Shown: positions 4,803-14,760 of the stretch, in pieces | Layout: the number at the start of each line of letters is the position of its first letter | How positions within the stretch are numbered: position 1 is the first letter of the stretch | IMG/VR virus record: IMGVR_UViG_3300020583_000029 | Span: 1-35,911 of that record | Origin: a virus | Direction: 5' to 3' (one strand) | DNA length: 35,911 bases | Position numbers and translations under genes: made by a program | Notes under the pieces: generated by a model | What the model was told of the DNA's origin: nothing | Databases searched by the model: none | What the model saw: the letters and a program-made list of their open reading frames with translations, nothing else

Positions 4803-4999
4803 GCGACGATCTCGAATCACAAATTGCGAACGAGCGTTCCGAAATTGAGAACGCACCCAAGGTGCCGCTCCGCCAGTATCAGCCAACCAGCGGATTGGCG
4901 GGGCGCTGCCATTGGTGTGGACGGATCTCTAGCGATCTGGTTCTGGTGGAAGGTGAACGTTACAAGGGGCGCGACTGTTGCGGAGGGCGACACACATGA
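4799..4999 (+). CDS. Small zinc-ribbon protein
   Basis: A 66-residue protein overlapping the previous gene by ATGA. A charged N-terminal helix is followed by CHWCGR (about residues 37-42) and RDCCGG near the C-terminus, a four-Cys zinc-ribbon layout. The stop overlaps the start of the homing endonuclease gene (ATGA). Whether it lost a C-terminal part when the endonuclease arrived cannot be told from this sequence, but the ribbon appears complete. Confidence 0.55.
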   Translation: MSDDLESQIANERSEIENAPKVPLRQYQPTSGLAGRCHWCGRISSDLVLVEGERYKGRDCCGGRHT

Positions 5000-5457
5000 T
5001 GTCGTGGGAGTACATCGCTGGATTCTTTGATGGCGAAGGCCATGCGGCCCTAAGAACAGCCTCGAATGGCGCGGCTTGGTTCGCTGGAATCGGCCAGTCC
5101 GGAAAAGAGGGGAAGCAGATACTTGAAGAAATCCAGGAGTTTTTGAGGATTCACGGAATCAATTCGAACCTTCATGCCGATTCACATAAGGGCAAGTTCT
5201 CTAAGCGAGACATGTACCGCCTCACCCTATCTAATAGAATCAACGTGGTCGGCCTCCTTAAGAAGCTTATCCCATTCGTTCATGTCAAAAAGGCAACAGT
5301 ACAAGACATTCTCCGGTACGACATCTTGTATCCAAGATGGACATCCAGAGAGCGCGGTTTAATTCTCAATCGGAGATGGGAAAAGACCGTGCTGGTTAGG
5401 AGTAAAAATGGAAATCCCTACAGAATCTCCAAGGAAGTATGGGGTTTGGAGCGATGA
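4996..5457 (+). CDS. LAGLIDADG homing endonuclease (first copy)
   Basis: A 153-residue protein starting MMSWEYIAGFFDGEGH. AGFFDGEG at residues 8-15 is the LAGLIDADG signature, whose last acidic residue coordinates the catalytic metal. Only one motif is present, so the enzyme would act as a homodimer. The rest (helical segment IQEFLRIHGI, basic strand region, LLKKLIPFV) fits the family's single-domain length. GGAGG lies nine to ten bases before the ATG at 4996; an upstream in-frame ATG (4978) is less likely. It is wedged by ATGA overlaps between two ordinary genes, with no room for a group I intron, so it appears free-standing. Confidence 0.85.
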   Translation: MMSWEYIAGFFDGEGHAALRTASNGAAWFAGIGQSGKEGKQILEEIQEFLRIHGINSNLHADSHKGKFSKRDMYRLTLSNRINVVGLLKKLIPFVHVKKATVQDILRYDILYPRWTSRERGLILNRRWEKTVLVRSKNGNPYRISKEVWGLER

Positions 5458-5706: not shown

Positions 5707-8127
5707 GTGGCGACAACTCAAGGTATCAATTCAGCGATCTCCGGACTCGCAGGGAAAGTCTCGGACTTTTTCTCGAACCGCGATAAGGTCATTCGGGACA
5801 AGACCGACAAGCCTACTCCACGCGAGATTCAGCCTCAATACAAGTGGGACTTACCTGTAGAGGACCGCTTAAAGGGGCTGGCTGACTATTACTACCGCGA
5901 GGGCAGTTTCGAGAAGATCCAGTTCGCCCGCAAGTGGATGCGCAATGCCCTGATCTTTCAAGGCTACCATGAGCTCGAATGGTCCGAGATCAATGTTGCG
6001 TGGGATGTCATCATGCAGGATTCGGGCGACTATGCCTTCCCGAATAACTACTACCGCTCACTTATCCTGCACGGAGTAAGAGCTTACATCCAGAACGAGC
6101 CGTTGATCGAGCCGATGCCCTCCTCGGATGATCCCGAGGCACAGGCAAGTACTAAGGCGGCTAAGACTGCATTAGAGGTTATCAAGCAGGGAGTCAAGTA
6201 TGATTATCTCAGAGTCACCGAAGCGATCAATCTTAGACTGTTTGGTAACAGTTTCCGGTACTCCTATTACAGCAAAGACCCTCGTTACGGCTTTGTTGAA
6301 GCTGCCGTCTTCCAAGATCGAGATGTTCTCCTGTCTCCCGGTGGCTCAGTTTGCCCATCATGCGGCCCTATGGAAGGGAACTTTGACGTATGCCCCGGAT
6401 GCCAGCAACCAATCGTTCAGCATCTCCCTCCGGTAGTGCAGCGGATGCCTCAGCAGCAGGGGCAGACCCGCTACCCGCGCGGGGAGATCATGACCGAGGC
6501 GGTCAACCCTTTAGAAATCTATCTGCGGAGTTCCAGTTATGACCTCTGGCACGCTCCTTTCATTGTGCGTAATCGGGTTGTTGATCGGCTTGCTTTGCAG
6601 TCTGCTTTTCCGGATGTACAGCTTGCACCAAAGGGCGACGAAGGCGGAGGAGAAGCGTACTCTACTGGCGGCGACCTCGGGCTTATCTACCTCCAAAGCC
6701 TGGCAGACCTACCTGGCGACCCTACCCAATACGCCGCATGGTATGAACGTGCTACGGCAGCTGCGAAAGCTCTGCTCATCGAAGTCTGGCTCCGTCCCAG
6801 CCAATACTTCTTCGATAAAGAACTCATCAAGAAGTTCCCCGACGGCCTCTACATTAGCAAAACGGGCGACACTCTGCTCGAAAGCCGCAACGATACCATC
6901 GAGGATCACTGGACCCATTACATCTATAACCCGGTTCCGGGAAGAATCTGGGGCGACGGCGACGACGACATCATCCCCCAACAACTCAAGCTCGATGAAA
7001 CCGACCGCCTGATTCTTCGCAATCAGGGTTACAACTCCGCCCCACTTCTGGTTATCGACTCACAGAGGATTGACAAGAATGAAATCGTCAACGACCCGTC
7101 CACGATCATCGAGTGCAAAACGGGCGGGAAGGGTGTCAAGGATGCGGTCGAACAGCTCAACTCCAACCCGCTCAGTCAAGAGACTTGGCAGTGGAGATCA
7201 GCCCATCTTTCCGACATGTACTTCCATAGCCGGGTTAGCCCAAGCGCGGTCGGACTGCATCAGCCCGGAGTCAACACGTTTGGCGGACAGGAGTCGATGG
7301 CTTCTAAATCAGACTCATCCCTTCTGCCTAACCTCATTCTATGGAAAACCGCTGACGAACTCTGGGCCAGGCAAGTCCTGAAGCTCGCTTCCCAGAACTG
7401 GCTCGACGAACGAGTGCACTCCGTCATGGGACTGAATGGCAAGTGGGAATTCAACAAGCTCAAGGGCGATGCGCTCGATCTCGACAAGATCCGGATAGTA
7501 ACACGAGTGTTACCAATTGACCCGAGCCAGCAGGATGCCATGGCGCAGGCTGTAGCTGCGGGGGCTTTGGACCCGCAAGACCCGAGAGTCAAGCGCAAGA
7601 TGATGGAACTGTTCCACCTGCCCATTGAAATGGACTCGCTCTATACGGATCAGAAGGTCCAGTGGAAAGAGATCGAGACGATGAAGCAGACCGGCCAGCA
7701 GATTCAGCCGGTGATGATCCGCGACAACGACATGGTGCATATCGACATCTGCCGGAACTATCTCAATTCCGATGAGGCGACGGACAATCCGCAGATGGCG
7801 CAGATCGTTCTCCAACACGCCCAACTGCACATCATCAACATGGCGCGTCAGGCCCAGATGCAGGCAGTTGTTCAGGGAGCAGGACAGGCGGCAGCGCAGG
7901 CTACCGGAGCAGGTCCGCAGCCGGAACAAGGCGGAGCGCCGGGGCAGTTACAGGGTAAGCAGCCTTCCGGCCAGAAGCCGAACGAAGGCAAGCAGGGTGG
8001 CAAGCATGGCGGGCAGTCTCCGACCAATCCAGTAACCAGACAGCAGAGAGCACAGAAAGGGCAAGCGGCCAGACCCAAGGGACAACCAAGTAGCGGCAAC
8101 CAATTTCACCAAAGGCAGCAAACATGA
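5707..8127 (+). CDS. Portal protein with an inserted zinc ribbon
   Basis: An 806-residue protein starting at GTG 5707. Its size, its place after terminase, and segments such as FARKWMRNALIFQGYHELEW and NNYYRSLILHGVRAYIQNEP identify it as a portal of the large podovirus type, the dodecameric channel through which DNA enters and leaves. Residues 216-232 hold CPSCG and CPGC, a zinc ribbon set in the N-terminal third. The stretch around FHSRVSPSAVGLH fits the later portal core. The last 90 or so residues are Gln, Gly, Ala and Pro-rich and basic, a flexible tail. The stop overlaps the next gene (ATGA). Portal identity is by pattern and context. Confidence 0.85.
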   Translation: MATTQGINSAISGLAGKVSDFFSNRDKVIRDKTDKPTPREIQPQYKWDLPVEDRLKGLADYYYREGSFEKIQFARKWMRNALIFQGYHELEWSEINVAWDVIMQDSGDYAFPNNYYRSLILHGVRAYIQNEPLIEPMPSSDDPEAQASTKAAKTALEVIKQGVKYDYLRVTEAINLRLFGNSFRYSYYSKDPRYGFVEAAVFQDRDVLLSPGGSVCPSCGPMEGNFDVCPGCQQPIVQHLPPVVQRMPQQQGQTRYPRGEIMTEAVNPLEIYLRSSSYDLWHAPFIVRNRVVDRLALQSAFPDVQLAPKGDEGGGEAYSTGGDLGLIYLQSLADLPGDPTQYAAWYERATAAAKALLIEVWLRPSQYFFDKELIKKFPDGLYISKTGDTLLESRNDTIEDHWTHYIYNPVPGRIWGDGDDDIIPQQLKLDETDRLILRNQGYNSAPLLVIDSQRIDKNEIVNDPSTIIECKTGGKGVKDAVEQLNSNPLSQETWQWRSAHLSDMYFHSRVSPSAVGLHQPGVNTFGGQESMASKSDSSLLPNLILWKTADELWARQVLKLASQNWLDERVHSVMGLNGKWEFNKLKGDALDLDKIRIVTRVLPIDPSQQDAMAQAVAAGALDPQDPRVKRKMMELFHLPIEMDSLYTDQKVQWKEIETMKQTGQQIQPVMIRDNDMVHIDICRNYLNSDEATDNPQMAQIVLQHAQLHIINMARQAQMQAVVQGAGQAAAQATGAGPQPEQGGAPGQLQGKQPSGQKPNEGKQGGKHGGQSPTNPVTRQQRAQKGQAARPKGQPSSGNQFHQRQQT

Positions 8128-9208: not shown

Positions 9209-11980
9209 ATGAGAACGGCGATTCTGCTGGCAGTCTTTAGCCTTCCCGCATTTGGGCAGGGAGCCTTTTACCAGTTTCCGGTGCCGCTTCCGGGTGCGAC
9301 GTTTAGGGTATGCCCGGTTGGTACTCAAAACCCATGCCCTACTCCGGTCAACATATACAGCGATCAGGCGCTAACGCACCTCATTACCCAGCCAGCCAGT
9401 ACCGGGCCGACTGGAGCCTACGCTTTTTGGGTATCTCCGGGACAGTACACCATCCAGATTGGGCAGCCGTATGACCTAGTGTACATCCTTAACTTAGGGG
9501 GCAGTGGAGGTGGTGTAATCGTAGGACCGCCTAACATTGGCGTACAAGTAGTAGGTAACGGTTCTAGTTTCGTGGCGCAAGCCAAGCCCGTCATTGATGT
9601 GCGCGACTTCGGCGCGGTAGGCGATGGGCAGGTCGCGACCGACTGCTACATGACCTCGGGAAGCCCTGTATTAAATTGTGAAACTGCTCATTTTTTTATG
9701 ACCGATATCGGCAAGAAGATCGCAGTCTATGGATCTGGTCCCACGAATAATGGTCTTATTCAGCCACTATCTTCCTCGATTATAGCTTTTACCAGCGGAA
9801 CTCAAGTTACTCTCAATGATAATGCAAACACTTCTACTACGCATGTGATTGCAACAATATCTTCCTGCTCGCGGAGTTTGAACGTTGCCACCTGCACGAC
9901 TACAGGAGCGCATAACTTTCAGGCCGGCCAGATGGTCAATATTAATAACGTTGGAGCATCAGGGTTTACTCAGGATTCTTCTTTCATTGGCGTTTGGCCG
10001 ATCCAAACCGTGCCCGCTGGTAATCAGTTTACGTTGAAAAGTTACTTGTTAAACGATGTCACTAGTGTTACTGGCGGAGTAGCTGACGGGCACAGTGAGC
10101 GTACCGTGTGGGGTACGGACAACACGGCAGCTTTACAGGCGGCGGTCGATGCCGCAGGAACTGCGGGCGGAGGGAAAGTGCTTATTCCGAAAGGTCTCTA
10201 TCTGACGCATGGCATCAACATGGCCTGCGCTCAAATAGGGAACTTTACCGGAGCTGGTTACTACAACTGCACCGTGGCCTACAACTACGTGACCATCCAG
10301 GGCGACGGGGCAGATGTGACTGGACTTGAGAACTGGGATGTGAATGTAACTATGGCTCAACCTTGGGATAACAGTCCAGGGGCCGGACATCCTGGCATCT
10401 TCATGCTGGGGATTTCTTCTCTAGGGGATTATGATGTTCCTCCGGTTGGTGGTCCCACAATTCCATTGAATCACATCGAAATCTCGGGACTGACTATCCG
10501 GCAAGCCAAGAATATACCTTCTGGAGCCAAGGCAATTTTCGATGAAATCAGTAACGATGTAAACATTCACGACAATAAGGTAATGGGATTCTCCTATGAG
10601 TGCATTTATCAAGGCGGCAAGAGCCGTCGCTGGGATGTGCACGATAACTATGTGACGCAGTGCGGAGAAGGTGGCCCATCGAATGCGACCTCAACCTCAG
10701 CGCTAAACGAAAACGGCTGGGATTCCGTTTTCCATGACAACCGGGTAGATGATTCCGGCCAGTGTATGGAAGGCGCCGGGCATGACGATATGTTCATCGG
10801 AAATAGCTGTGATATGCGTGGAACTGATTCCGCCAGCGCCAGCCCGCTATACCTGATCAATCTAAGCTCGGCTACTTATGGGTTATGGCGCTGGGTAATT
10901 CGTGATAATCGTGGGATTGGCGGGTCGGGAACCGTCGAGAATGTCAATGGCATGATGCGAGACGTAGCGATTGAAGGGAACACCTTTATAGATCCAGGCA
11001 GCTTTTCTATCGGCTCCGGCAAGGAAACCAACAATGTTAATTATGGACCGCAACCCCCCAGGCCTCATGGTACAAGTTCATTCAGTAATAATACTTTGCT
11101 CTATACTGGGCTCCAGTATCCAGTCACCTTCCCGTTTTCGATCAATGGCAATCAACATCCATTATTGGAGGATGTACTGGTTGATTCTAACCGAATCATT
11201 TTCAAGACTGGCTATTGCTCGTCTGCTCCCCACGCATCATGCCTGTCTACGGGAGACTGTAGCGCAGGAACTTGCACGGTGCCAGTAGGAGCTTTTAGCA
11301 TTCCTTCGCCGGGCCTTGGGCCGACTTGGGTCACGCTCACTGTTTATGGCACTGGTTCGGTGGCCGCCCCCTCCGTAGAGAATGGCTATATCTACATGAA
11401 TCTGGGCGCAAGCGGAACCAGCGGAGGGTCGGAGCCGGTCTGGTGTACCACGACTAATCCGCCCTGCACGGTTGTAGATGGCACGGTGACTTGGACTCTA
11501 TACAATCACCGTCCGCGCGTCTCGTTCACGAATACAACCATGGTTGCACCTGCTGGATTAGCGCCATCAGGCGTAGAAGTCACGATTCAAAATACTCCGA
11601 CTGCCGGATACACAATAGATAAGTTCGATTATAACTTGGCCTCTCGGTTTACCACTCCTGGTGCAACAGTATTCCCGGCAAACTCCAGCATATTGAACCG
11701 AAATCAGGAGTTCTTCCCCGATAACATGCTGGACATCGGGGCCGCTGCATTAGGCCGCCCGCGAAACGTTTATATAGCTAGTTCCTTATTCCAGGGCTCG
11801 GTCACCTTCGCCACACTCCCATCAGCCCCGTCCAATGGACAGCGCATTTACTGCTCTGACTGCACTGTCGCGACGCCCGCCTCTTGCACAAATGTGACGA
11901 CGGCAGCCTCGTGTACCTGCACGTCCGGTGGGACTGGCGCTGAAGCGAAGCGCATAAATGGAGCTTGGCTCTGTAATTAA
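9209..11980 (+). CDS. Exported tailspike with pectate-lyase-like beta-helix
   Basis: A 923-residue protein read from the ATG at 9209, which opens a signal peptide (MRTAILLAVFSLPAFGQG); the in-frame ATG at 9182 would spoil it. Residues about 19-95 repeat the N-terminal domain of the preceding protein. VIDVRDFGAVGDG at about 128-140, and DNTAALQAAVDAA with GGGKVLIPKGLY near 304-334, are the classic opening of a right-handed beta-helix tailspike or glycan lyase. Many Asn-rich rungs follow (NDVNIHDNKVMGF, HDNYVTQCGEG). The C-terminus is a Cys-rich cap (YCSDCT, then WLCN). It probably binds or cleaves host surface polysaccharide. Catalytic residues cannot be picked by eye. Confidence 0.8.
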   Translation: MRTAILLAVFSLPAFGQGAFYQFPVPLPGATFRVCPVGTQNPCPTPVNIYSDQALTHLITQPASTGPTGAYAFWVSPGQYTIQIGQPYDLVYILNLGGSGGGVIVGPPNIGVQVVGNGSSFVAQAKPVIDVRDFGAVGDGQVATDCYMTSGSPVLNCETAHFFMTDIGKKIAVYGSGPTNNGLIQPLSSSIIAFTSGTQVTLNDNANTSTTHVIATISSCSRSLNVATCTTTGAHNFQAGQMVNINNVGASGFTQDSSFIGVWPIQTVPAGNQFTLKSYLLNDVTSVTGGVADGHSERTVWGTDNTAALQAAVDAAGTAGGGKVLIPKGLYLTHGINMACAQIGNFTGAGYYNCTVAYNYVTIQGDGADVTGLENWDVNVTMAQPWDNSPGAGHPGIFMLGISSLGDYDVPPVGGPTIPLNHIEISGLTIRQAKNIPSGAKAIFDEISNDVNIHDNKVMGFSYECIYQGGKSRRWDVHDNYVTQCGEGGPSNATSTSALNENGWDSVFHDNRVDDSGQCMEGAGHDDMFIGNSCDMRGTDSASASPLYLINLSSATYGLWRWVIRDNRGIGGSGTVENVNGMMRDVAIEGNTFIDPGSFSIGSGKETNNVNYGPQPPRPHGTSSFSNNTLLYTGLQYPVTFPFSINGNQHPLLEDVLVDSNRIIFKTGYCSSAPHASCLSTGDCSAGTCTVPVGAFSIPSPGLGPTWVTLTVYGTGSVAAPSVENGYIYMNLGASGTSGGSEPVWCTTTNPPCTVVDGTVTWTLYNHRPRVSFTNTTMVAPAGLAPSGVEVTIQNTPTAGYTIDKFDYNLASRFTTPGATVFPANSSILNRNQEFFPDNMLDIGAAALGRPRNVYIASSLFQGSVTFATLPSAPSNGQRIYCSDCTVATPASCTNVTTAASCTCTSGGTGAEAKRINGAWLCN

Positions 11981-11981
11981 C

Positions 11982-12176
11982 ATGACCCGCCAGAAGCGAG
12001 CTACCCCCAAGTACCGTTGGATCGTCAGTCTGACGGTGCCAAACTACGATTATTTGTGTGTCCAGGCCATGCACCGGGGCGTGACTATGGCCCGTTTACT
12101 CAACGAAATGCTGCAAGATGCCCGTAGAGATATCAAAACTTGCAGCCCAACTCCCGAAAGGATACAGGTTAACTAA
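11982..12176 (+). CDS. Small ribbon-helix-helix-like protein
   Basis: A 64-residue protein from the ATG at 11982, one base after the tailspike stop; an upstream in-frame ATG (11958) lies inside the spike gene. A basic start (MTRQKRATPKYRW) leads into a strand IVSLTVP, a helix NYDYLCVQAMHRG, then TMARLLNEMLQDARRD. Strand, helix, turn with Thr/Ser, helix is the MetJ/Arc ribbon-helix-helix layout. No good Shine-Dalgarno is seen. It sits between spike and scaffold, an odd place for a DNA-binding regulator; translational or late-gene control is possible. Confidence 0.5.
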   Translation: MTRQKRATPKYRWIVSLTVPNYDYLCVQAMHRGVTMARLLNEMLQDARRDIKTCSPTPERIQVN

Positions 12177-12177
12177 G

Positions 12178-13044
12178 ATGTCCGAAGACCAGGCTACATT
12201 AAAAGACACATTGGTGTCTGACCAAGCAACTGACGCTACCCCGGCAGAAGCTACCGCTGCGCCTACGCAGGCTACGGAAGAACTCAAGCCGATCCGGATT
12301 GTGGAAGCTCCCGATCCGGCAGCCGCCGAACTCGGCACCATCCTGGCGAACTCCGGATGGACGAAGGCAAATGTAAACGATCTTTTGCAGTCCCCTACGG
12401 CGCTCGAATCATTGAAAAACATGATTCAGAACAACCCGCAGGAATTTCTCAACATGGTCGAACGCGCAGACCCCCGAGCGGCTGAAAGGCTGCTCGATAC
12501 CGCCTCAGACGAATATCTCAGGCGGAATGAAAGTAAGGGAGGCAAGTCGAAAGACGAAGATTCCTCCGGTTTGCAGCGGGAAGTTGAGACGCTACGCGAA
12601 AAAACCAACCGTCTTGAAGCTGATCAGCAGAGACGGGATCAGGCGCTGGCTACTGCTGCCATGCGCCAACGTTTAGACGCGAGAGTGGATGACCTGTTAG
12701 GGCAAGTCAAGGACCTTGGGCTGAAGCCCTCGGAGACAAAGAATCTGAGAGCACGCGTGTATACCGAACTGGCGAGTGATGCCACGGTGGCACAGCGAGT
12801 CTCGAACGGCAATTTCGTCGATGTGCCCCGCGTTTTCCAGACGCTCATTGACGAGAAAGTCGCTGACCAAAATGCCGCTGTCCAGGCCGAAAAGGACAAG
12901 CGAGAAGGCGTGCAGAGAGGCGCTTATCCGGAGTTTTCCCTTGGTGCGCAGGCAAACATCCCGCCAGACTTGCTGGAGAAATCGTCTGGTAGCTGGGATG
13001 ACACCGAGGCAGCTTTGGCGAAGGCGCTGACAGGCACGCGATAA
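12178..13044 (+). CDS. Putative scaffolding protein
   Basis: A 288-residue, highly charged protein directly upstream of the capsid region. The N-terminal 60 residues are Ala/Thr/Pro-rich and disordered, then come Asn/Gln-rich helices (LQSPTALESLKNMIQ). A long coiled coil near residues 130-175 (LQREVETLREKTNRLEADQQ) and a helical C-terminal domain rich in Ala, Asp and Lys follow. This is the usual make-up of an internal scaffold that guides shell assembly and is lost on packaging. The in-frame ATG at 12118 (MPVEISKLAAQLPKGYR) would add 20 plausible residues but overlap the previous gene by 59 bases. No protease gene is seen nearby. Confidence 0.7.
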   Translation: MSEDQATLKDTLVSDQATDATPAEATAAPTQATEELKPIRIVEAPDPAAAELGTILANSGWTKANVNDLLQSPTALESLKNMIQNNPQEFLNMVERADPRAAERLLDTASDEYLRRNESKGGKSKDEDSSGLQREVETLREKTNRLEADQQRRDQALATAAMRQRLDARVDDLLGQVKDLGLKPSETKNLRARVYTELASDATVAQRVSNGNFVDVPRVFQTLIDEKVADQNAAVQAEKDKREGVQRGAYPEFSLGAQANIPPDLLEKSSGSWDDTEAALAKALTGTR

Positions 13045-13049
13045 CCCAT

Positions 13050-13493
13050 ATGGGAATGAAGCGCGGTTACATGGCACCTAAGCTGAATGCTACCAGGATA
13101 CCTACGGAATCTGAGATTGCGTGGGCGGCTGGTGTGTATGAGGGCGAGGGGACATGTTTCGCGAAAGTTGGTAAGCGCACTCAAAAAGGGCGTACGTACA
13201 AAAGCGTGACGGACTATCTCAGCGTAACCCAAAAAGACCCTGAGATTTTGTACCGGATGCGTGATTTGTTCGGAGGCTCGATCTATGAGTACCAGAACCA
13301 TATGGGCTCCGTACATCGCTGGACTATTCACGGGCAGCGCACAAGAAACTTTGTGCAGTTGATTTACCCGTGGCTGTCTGAGCGAAGGAAGCAACAGATC
13401 GAGGCGGTCAACGCCATAATTCTTGCAAATGACACCGAGGGCGATTTGGTAGAAGCCCTTACGGTGGGAGGGTGCGAAAATCGCGAACTTTAA
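13050..13493 (+). CDS. LAGLIDADG homing endonuclease (second copy)
   Basis: A 147-residue protein whose motif WAAGVYEGEG (about residues 25-34) is a LAGLIDADG signature with the acidic pair intact. One motif means a homodimeric enzyme. Further on, SVTQKDPEILYRMRDLFGG and the basic C-terminal helix WLSERRKQQIEA match the family fold. ATGs at 13050 and 13071 (MAPKLNATRIP) are both possible; neither has a strong Shine-Dalgarno. The 13050 ATG lies in the palindrome CCCATATGGG (13045-13054). The gene sits between scaffold and capsid genes and its 3' end overlaps the ribosome-binding site of the capsid gene. It is only distantly similar to the copy at 4996. Confidence 0.82.
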   Translation: MGMKRGYMAPKLNATRIPTESEIAWAAGVYEGEGTCFAKVGKRTQKGRTYKSVTDYLSVTQKDPEILYRMRDLFGGSIYEYQNHMGSVHRWTIHGQRTRNFVQLIYPWLSERRKQQIEAVNAIILANDTEGDLVEALTVGGCENREL

Positions 13494-13506
13494 CTTAACG
13501 GCTGCG

Positions 13507-14760
13507 ATGCCGTTAATGAAAATATTTTTTAACCCACGTATCAGCAAGCAGTTTAACTCGGCTGCCGTTCTCTGGAACCGCTATGCCGATGGCAAGGGTA
13601 TTCCGATCTCGAACCGCGGGATGGAAATTCCCACTCACATGACGCCCAACGCATCTTTTGACTGGTATGCGGACGGCGGAACGCTCCCGGCTGGCGGGTC
13701 TGAAGCAATGGCCTCGGCCCTTGTCGGCTTCTTCTCGTTCGTGCTCTCGGTAGGCTTTACCGGGGCCGCGCTGGACGCTGCGGGCAATGATGCGGTGACG
13801 TATGCCCGAGCGCTGGCGTTCAACGTGAAGATGGCGACGATCAATGCCATCAAGTACCTAAATATCTACGCGTTTCTGGATGGCACGGGCGCTCTGGCGA
13901 CTCTCGGCACGGCGGTGCTGACTTCGACCACAGTGAACTCGACGCTGGTAGCGTCTGGGTCCATCGAGGGCACGCACTGGCTGCGTCCTGGCATGACGGT
14001 GGCAATTCATAACGGCGCGACCGCGACGGTCAGAGGGACAGGAACCATTATCTCTCTCGGTAACCCGATCGAAGACGCTACGGGCACGAGCTTTGTGATT
14101 GGCCCGACGAACGTGGCCTTTACCACGGCTTCGGGCGACATTGTGACCATCACGGCTTCGACTGGCGCTTCGGACTCGTTCCAGAACGTCATTGCCGGCC
14201 TGAAACTCATCATCGACAACGGAACGGTATCCTCGGTCTTCCAGAACATCAACCGTGGAACCAACCCACAGTACAACTCAGGGGTCATTGCCCTTGCCGG
14301 AACCCCGGCGCTGGCTCGAGATCACTTGCGCAGAATGCTGGCAACCATCCAGATTTTGCAAGGCAAGGTTTCGCCAAGCCTGGAATTCCTGAGCCATCCC
14401 GCCCAACTCCACGCCTACATGGATATGGGCTGGACGCTGAAGCGGTTCAACGACGCCAACAAGAAGCTTGATCTCGGCTTCACCGCCGTCGAGTGGGAAG
14501 GCTTCCCGTGGGTAGTTGACACGGACTGCCCGAAAGACCACATCTTCGGCGTGGACCGCGATCTGGTGTTTAAGGTCATTGCTCGAGAGCTGAGCTTTGA
14601 TGACCGCACTGGCTCGATCCTGCGGCAGAACCCGAGCGCAACCGCTGGGCAGTATGTGGATGCGTACACGGCGTTTCTGGAGTTCCGTGGCAATTTGGGA
14701 ACCTATGTCCCGAATGCACATACGAAACTTAACGGGCTTTCCGTGCCCCCTGGATACTAA
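13507..14760 (+). CDS. Major capsid protein
   Basis: A 417-residue protein after the scaffold, expected to have the HK97 fold. It shows an N-terminal arm (MKIFFNPRISKQFNSAAVLW), a helix-rich spine region (AVTYARALAFNVKMATINA), a beta-rich insertion near residues 130-215 (THWLRPGMTVAIHNGATATV), and a C-terminal region with FLSHPAQLHAYMDMG and AYTAFLEFRGNLGTY, typical of coat proteins. The first ATG, 13507, lacks a ribosome-binding site. A perfect GGAGG at 13467-13471 instead precedes an in-frame ATC at 13480, from which the protein would begin with ANFNLTAAMPLMK, so the true start may be 13480. A hairpin follows the gene. Confidence 0.85.
   Translation: MPLMKIFFNPRISKQFNSAAVLWNRYADGKGIPISNRGMEIPTHMTPNASFDWYADGGTLPAGGSEAMASALVGFFSFVLSVGFTGAALDAAGNDAVTYARALAFNVKMATINAIKYLNIYAFLDGTGALATLGTAVLTSTTVNSTLVASGSIEGTHWLRPGMTVAIHNGATATVRGTGTIISLGNPIEDATGTSFVIGPTNVAFTTASGDIVTITASTGASDSFQNVIAGLKLIIDNGTVSSVFQNINRGTNPQYNSGVIALAGTPALARDHLRRMLATIQILQGKVSPSLEFLSHPAQLHAYMDMGWTLKRFNDANKKLDLGFTAVEWEGFPWVVDTDCPKDHIFGVDRDLVFKVIARELSFDDRTGSILRQNPSATAGQYVDAYTAFLEFRGNLGTYVPNAHTKLNGLSVPPGY

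Follow-up and report, generated by a model that had tools for sequence, protein, structure and literature searches.

Bacteria almost never use AUC and AUA as initiation codons, and near-cognate starts of this kind are thought to be limited to a small number of bacterial genes, mostly regulated ones. A viral DNA of 35,911 nucleotides (IMG/VR virus record IMGVR_UViG_3300020583_000029, positions 1 to 35,911; this whole stretch is referred to as the window) raises the question whether such a codon serves as the start of a major capsid gene. In the original prediction, the ATG annotated at 13507 was described as lacking a ribosome-binding site, and an in-frame ATC further upstream as following a perfect GGAGG; it was proposed that AUC is used as a rare start, that an ATG was lost when a homing endonuclease gene arrived, or that the base is an assembly error. 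A weak start for the protein that is normally the most abundant in the virion runs against expectation and is counter-intuitive. The phage belongs to a family of uncultured tailed phages, and the locus was analysed here together with 23 IMG/VR contigs carrying close relatives of the capsid gene, in which the start-codon variants come from separate metagenomes.

Gene content of the capsid locus

The features of the window on which the analysis is based are the following:

12178..13044, + strand: gene upstream of the capsid gene, a probable scaffold protein by position only; conserved family with ATG or GTG start; a longer ORF begins at 12118
13050..13493, + strand: free-standing LAGLIDADG-type homing endonuclease gene; PHROG 5046 (labelled HNH), 4.3e-18; absent from contig L001 at this junction
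13464..13473, + strand: extended Shine-Dalgarno region GGTGGGAGGG; predicted duplex of -10.7 kcal/mol with ACCUCCUUA, the strongest of the family's capsid starts
13480..13482, + strand: proposed AUC initiation codon; ATG, GTG, TTG, ATC or ATA at the homologous column in relatives
13480..14760, + strand: major capsid protein gene, 426 codons from the ATC, stop codon excluded; PHROG 14242 (major head protein), 1.1e-33; homologues in 23 IMG/VR contigs with a common start column
13483..13506, + strand: capsid codons 2-9 (ANFNLTAA), a conserved peptide
13507..13509, + strand: internal ATG at codon 10, probably not the start; first ATG/GTG/TTG of the open frame

The capsid gene was assigned by the PHROG 14242 profile, by synteny with the terminase gene at 2290 (Pfam and PHROG profiles) and the upstream gene, and by annotated capsid homologues; the product of ORF 5707 is called portal from its position only. 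A PDB profile search with the capsid protein gave zero sequence matches, and scans of bacterial genomes with the capsid protein and the ORF 5707 product gave zero relatives. An AlphaFold capsid model (16 family sequences), for which the HK97 fold was the question, reached a pLDDT of 39.8, which is too low for use.

The ORF at 13050 belongs to the LAGLIDADG type by its family profile and a LAGLIDADG-like motif (AAGVYEGEG); it has no Pfam match, and its homologues in Streptomyces and Synechococcus phages are labelled LAGLIDADG or HNH endonuclease. A second, distantly similar LAGLIDADG_3 endonuclease ORF is located at 4978-5457 of the window, before the gene at 5707.

Position of the capsid start

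The window sequence contains GGAGG at 13467-13471, within GGGAGGG (13466-13472), followed by a spacer of eight bases (13472-13479) and by ATC at 13480-13482, which is in frame with ATG 13507. The nine codons from 13480 (ATC GCG AAC TTT AAC TTA ACG GCT GCG) include no stop, and the endonuclease stop codon (13491-13493) falls inside this stretch, the endonuclease ORF overlapping the proposed capsid start by 14 bases. The GGAGG, its spacing to the in-frame ATC, the open codons and the end of the endonuclease gene had been predicted correctly, as had the poor context of ATG 13507, where the Shine-Dalgarno energy is just -1.7 kcal/mol; of the statement that the site lies thirty bases upstream, the site holds and the distance does not, the ATC being located 27 bases and the start of GGAGG 40 bases before ATG 13507. 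The upstream in-frame stop is TAG at 13450-13452, with nine open codons between it and the ATC, and from this TAG to ATG 13507 no ATG, GTG or TTG occurs in the capsid frame. Therefore, ATC 13480, ATG 13507 and ATG 13516 are the only sensible capsid starts.

At the column homologous to 13480, the 23 relatives have 11 ATG, 4 GTG, 3 TTG, 3 ATC and 2 ATA codons:

ATG: L016, L017, L047, L048, L049, L050, L051, L052, L053, L054, L056
GTG: L001, L045, L046, L061
TTG: L040, L043, L044
ATC: L039, L041, L042
ATA: L010, L055

The motif FNL-T/S-A/S-A follows the start in all of them, one residue later in L017. In the ATC and ATA relatives an in-frame stop is found 3-5 codons upstream and another ATG, GTG or TTG at codon 6 at the earliest; the conserved coding N-terminus begins at the ATC or ATA itself, with no in-frame ATG, GTG or TTG upstream. 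At codon 10, the equivalent of ATG 13507, the relatives with ATC, ATA or TTG starts have GCG or GCC and those with ATG starts CAG or CAA; L001, L045 and L046 are the only aligned rows with an ATG there. Two cultured phages with capsid proteins of about 25% identity, Shocker and Brad, begin the gene at an ATG that precedes the counterpart of the LMK motif by 10-11 codons and follows an AGGA-type purine run. Since the start column of the relatives and the starts of Shocker and Brad nearly coincide, the position of the start is conserved and ATG 13507 is internal. Capsid genes of relatives beginning at the 13507 equivalent behind a good ribosome-binding site, named in the original prediction as evidence against it, occur in none of the 23. 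An alignment had also been suggested in order to find an ATG at the 13480 site; the start column is common to all 23 relatives, with ATG itself in 11 and GTG in L001, the nearest relative. Of the three options put forward, the use of AUC as the capsid start is the one supported.

The endonuclease and the origin of the codon

Up to position 13043, the DNA of the gene preceding the capsid gene matches L001 at about 95% identity; past this position, the place of the window's endonuclease is taken in L001 by a short stretch containing GTG. When the window (11983-13043) is set against L001 (3391-4463), the flanks of this about 95% identical gene are about 79% identical or unalignable, and the pattern of identity around it is suggestive of recombination that ended where the endonuclease is inserted. 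Within the capsid gene, the window and L001 differ at 18/96 bases in codons 2-33 and at 23/351 in codons 34-150 (P 0.001, the boundaries having been picked post hoc), and a higher divergence beside the endonuclease would be expected had the beginning of the capsid gene arrived together with it.

The odd start might be a by-product of homing, with a putative endonuclease recognition site over the capsid start whose bases were altered in carriers or resisters. In three members of the family an endonuclease gene accompanies the capsid gene, ahead of it in the window, within it in L052 and behind it in L010, and the window-L001 divergence peaks beside the endonuclease; as related endonucleases are found inside the L052 capsid gene and at the 3′ end of that of L010, the capsid gene seems to be a repeated endonuclease target. 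However, no endonuclease precedes the capsid gene in L039, L041 and L042 (ATC) or in L010 and L055 (ATA), so that the odd start does not depend on an endonuclease at the junction. Such an origin is regarded as improbable; it would be compatible with AUC use, as it concerns where the start came from and not whether it is used. Loss of an ATG through the arrival of the endonuclease is not supported as the cause, in view of these ATC and ATA relatives and of the GTG in the nearest relative.

The endonuclease ORF of L010 (5549-5983) is of the LAGLIDADG type, and the nearly identical L055 has different DNA at this place. In L052 (IMGVR_UViG_3300044814_000065, 9293-10010) the capsid reading frame breaks off after about codon 15; what follows is a segment of about 100 bases, an exon-like piece of 18 bases (TACTTCAACCCGCGGATT) and a further segment of about 590 bases that includes a LAGLIDADG-type endonuclease. 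An Rfam search of this interruption gave no intron match, and it may represent two introns or a broken gene. The scaffold-like upstream gene of L050 (about 1900-2790) has an in-frame stop in mid-gene, which may be recoded or may stem from misassembly.

Selection on the N-terminal peptide

Between the window and L001, codons 2-9 differ by 6 nucleotides and 0 amino acids (P 1.4e-4 under random placement) and codons 2-60 by 27 bases and 0 amino acids. The same eight codons differ by 9 nucleotides and 1 amino acid between the window and L039, both of which have ATC (P 1.1e-4), and by 4 nucleotides and 0 amino acids between L039 (ATC) and L040 (TTG; P 0.006); other pairs inside the ATC/ATA group were too similar or weakly significant. 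Judged by these substitutions, the peptide encoded upstream of ATG 13507 is under purifying selection.

This bears on the possibility that ribosomes first start at ATG 13507 (or 13516), within the gene, leaving the nine codons upstream untranslated. ATG 13507 is the first ATG/GTG/TTG of the open frame and sits 13 bases past the endonuclease stop, where reinitiation is conceivable, but it is preceded by a Shine-Dalgarno sequence of only -1.7 kcal/mol and replaced by a non-ATG codon in most relatives, and the peptide upstream of it, besides being under selection, is read from ATG, GTG or TTG in 18/23 relatives. An internal start is hence very unlikely. We attach equally little probability to the view that the window really has ATG or another canonical codon at this place and that the ATC arose in sequencing or assembly. 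Base 13482 (C) is known from one contig, and a sequence search for a sibling contig covering it gave zero matches; against an error stand five further contigs, each from a different metagenome, with ATC or ATA at this column, and the GTG of the nearest relative provides no evidence that ATG is to be expected at 13480. As ATC/ATA recurs in five separate metagenomes, assembly error is also unlikely as a general explanation.

Shine-Dalgarno sequences and RNA structure

The Shine-Dalgarno energy in the window is -10.7 kcal/mol before 13480, compared with -1.7 before both 13507 and 13516, and -10.7 was reached at 12/5101 sampled window positions (0.24%). Among the six ATC/ATA starts, an extended Shine-Dalgarno sequence is found in the window alone; the other five are weak (-3.9 to -5.0), so that ATC/ATA starts do not in general come with a strong one. 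In all five of these relatives the gene just upstream has a strong Shine-Dalgarno sequence of its own (-7.0 to -12.1) and its stop is located 15-18 bases before the capsid start; coupled reinitiation in these phages would be a reasonable hypothesis. A predicted hairpin of the window (GCGAAAAUCGC) would enclose the AUC, which speaks against initiation there, but is only modestly better than shuffles (z -1.74); neither this hairpin nor a common RNA structure was seen at the capsid start of the relatives compared. A phage initiator tRNA with another anticodon was found neither in the window nor in the examined parts of the relatives' contigs.

We regard it as extremely improbable that the capsid protein arises with no AUC initiation, whether through frameshifting or readthrough out of the upstream gene or through splicing of a transcript whose intron contains the endonuclease. 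The upstream stop of L039 does share the capsid frame, and the L052 capsid gene is interrupted by inserted DNA with an endonuclease, but the frame offset from the upstream stop to the capsid gene varies among relatives (offsets counted by hand), so that one conserved frameshift or readthrough cannot explain the ATC/ATA relatives, an Rfam search gave no group I or II intron match near the capsid start, and in the window the endonuclease ORF fills the entire gap, L001 starting with GTG where the insert is absent.

Start codons of other genes and number of origins

Start codons were tallied on the same contigs for ten other families with a clear start column, namely the terminase, the gene at about 4170, the scaffold-like gene and seven families downstream of the capsid gene; ORF 5707 (portal by position) and three further ORFs, which have no clear common start column, were left out. 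All 154 assignable starts of these families were ATG, GTG or TTG, under a rule more lenient than that for the capsid gene, since a canonical codon was accepted from twelve codons upstream to two downstream of the column. ATC/ATA starts thus amount to 6/21 in the capsid gene and 0/154 elsewhere (Fisher P 1.5e-6, ignoring shared ancestry), and non-ATG starts to 11/21 and 18/154 (Fisher P 4.8e-5, likewise ignoring shared ancestry). Among the families compared, AUC/AUA starts appear to occur only in the capsid gene.

Trees were computed from protein and from DNA after removal of the first ten codons. In these, the window forms a pair with L001 (GTG) and adjoins L049 and L051 (ATG), and a separate clade that also contains TTG members holds L039, L041, L042, L010 and L055. 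On the DNA tree, some forks of which are weakly supported, parsimony requires five changes between AUC/AUA and canonical starts. On these trees, AUC/AUA capsid starts have likely had at least two origins.

Proposed initiation and its meaning

Taken from the sequence comparisons, the capsid gene of the window very probably starts at AUC 13480 with fMet; the position is given by comparison with the relatives, and the use of AUC with fMet is what we infer from it. The 30S subunit would be placed by the extended Shine-Dalgarno sequence GGUGGGAGGG, the GGAGG of which ends eight bases before the AUC. Initiator fMet-tRNA would pair with the first two bases of AUC, leaving a C:C mismatch at the third position, and the predicted N-terminus of the product is (M)ANFNLTAAMPLMK. 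The strong Shine-Dalgarno sequence in the window could compensate for the weak codon, and ribosomes finishing the nearby endonuclease or upstream gene may aid the capsid start via coupling.

A further reading, which we put forward tentatively and consider doubtful, is that the capsid start, alone among the tallied core genes, repeatedly became AUC/AUA because weak initiation was selected, output being tied to relaxed IF3 proofreading or upstream coupling; the benefit would be the capsid:scaffold ratio or escape from a homing endonuclease whose recognition site is at the start. Recurrent use of AUC/AUA in a major virion gene, if true, would show that such codons are able to sustain, or deliberately restrict, an essential gene of high output. 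For annotation, gene callers restricted to ATG/GTG/TTG would trim 9-12 residues from these capsid proteins and may overlook similar starts elsewhere.

Comparison with known systems

AUC, AUA and AUU starts are known in infC (encoding IF3) and in a small number of other bacterial genes. To our knowledge, none has been described for a phage major capsid gene, and no report of an AUC/AUA start in a phage capsid gene was found in the literature searched, which covered few subscription papers. The baseplate gene 26 of phage T4 has an internal AUU start giving a minor internal product. It resembles the present case as a near-cognate start in a structural gene of a tailed phage; the difference is that the ATC of the window is the only start giving the full major capsid protein. 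The Jasminevirus group (Arthrobacter phages Brad, Adat and Jasmine) and Microbacterium phage Shocker share with the window a homologous capsid protein, the gene order portal, upstream protein, capsid, and a distance of 10-11 codons from the capsid start to the common motif; they differ in their ATG starts, at about 25% identity, and have no endonuclease gene at the junction. In Staphylococcus aureus, infC (AUA), ccpN (AUA) and cvfC1 (AUU) likewise have near-cognate AUH starts at a conserved position, with extended Shine-Dalgarno motifs and about 10-30% of the AUG output (PMC13009471). The likeness in the extended Shine-Dalgarno sequence applies to the window only, the other ATC/ATA relatives having weak ones. 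Moreover, genes of the infC type are regulators in which the codon is conserved, whereas the gene considered here is a phage structural gene in which the codon varies among close relatives.
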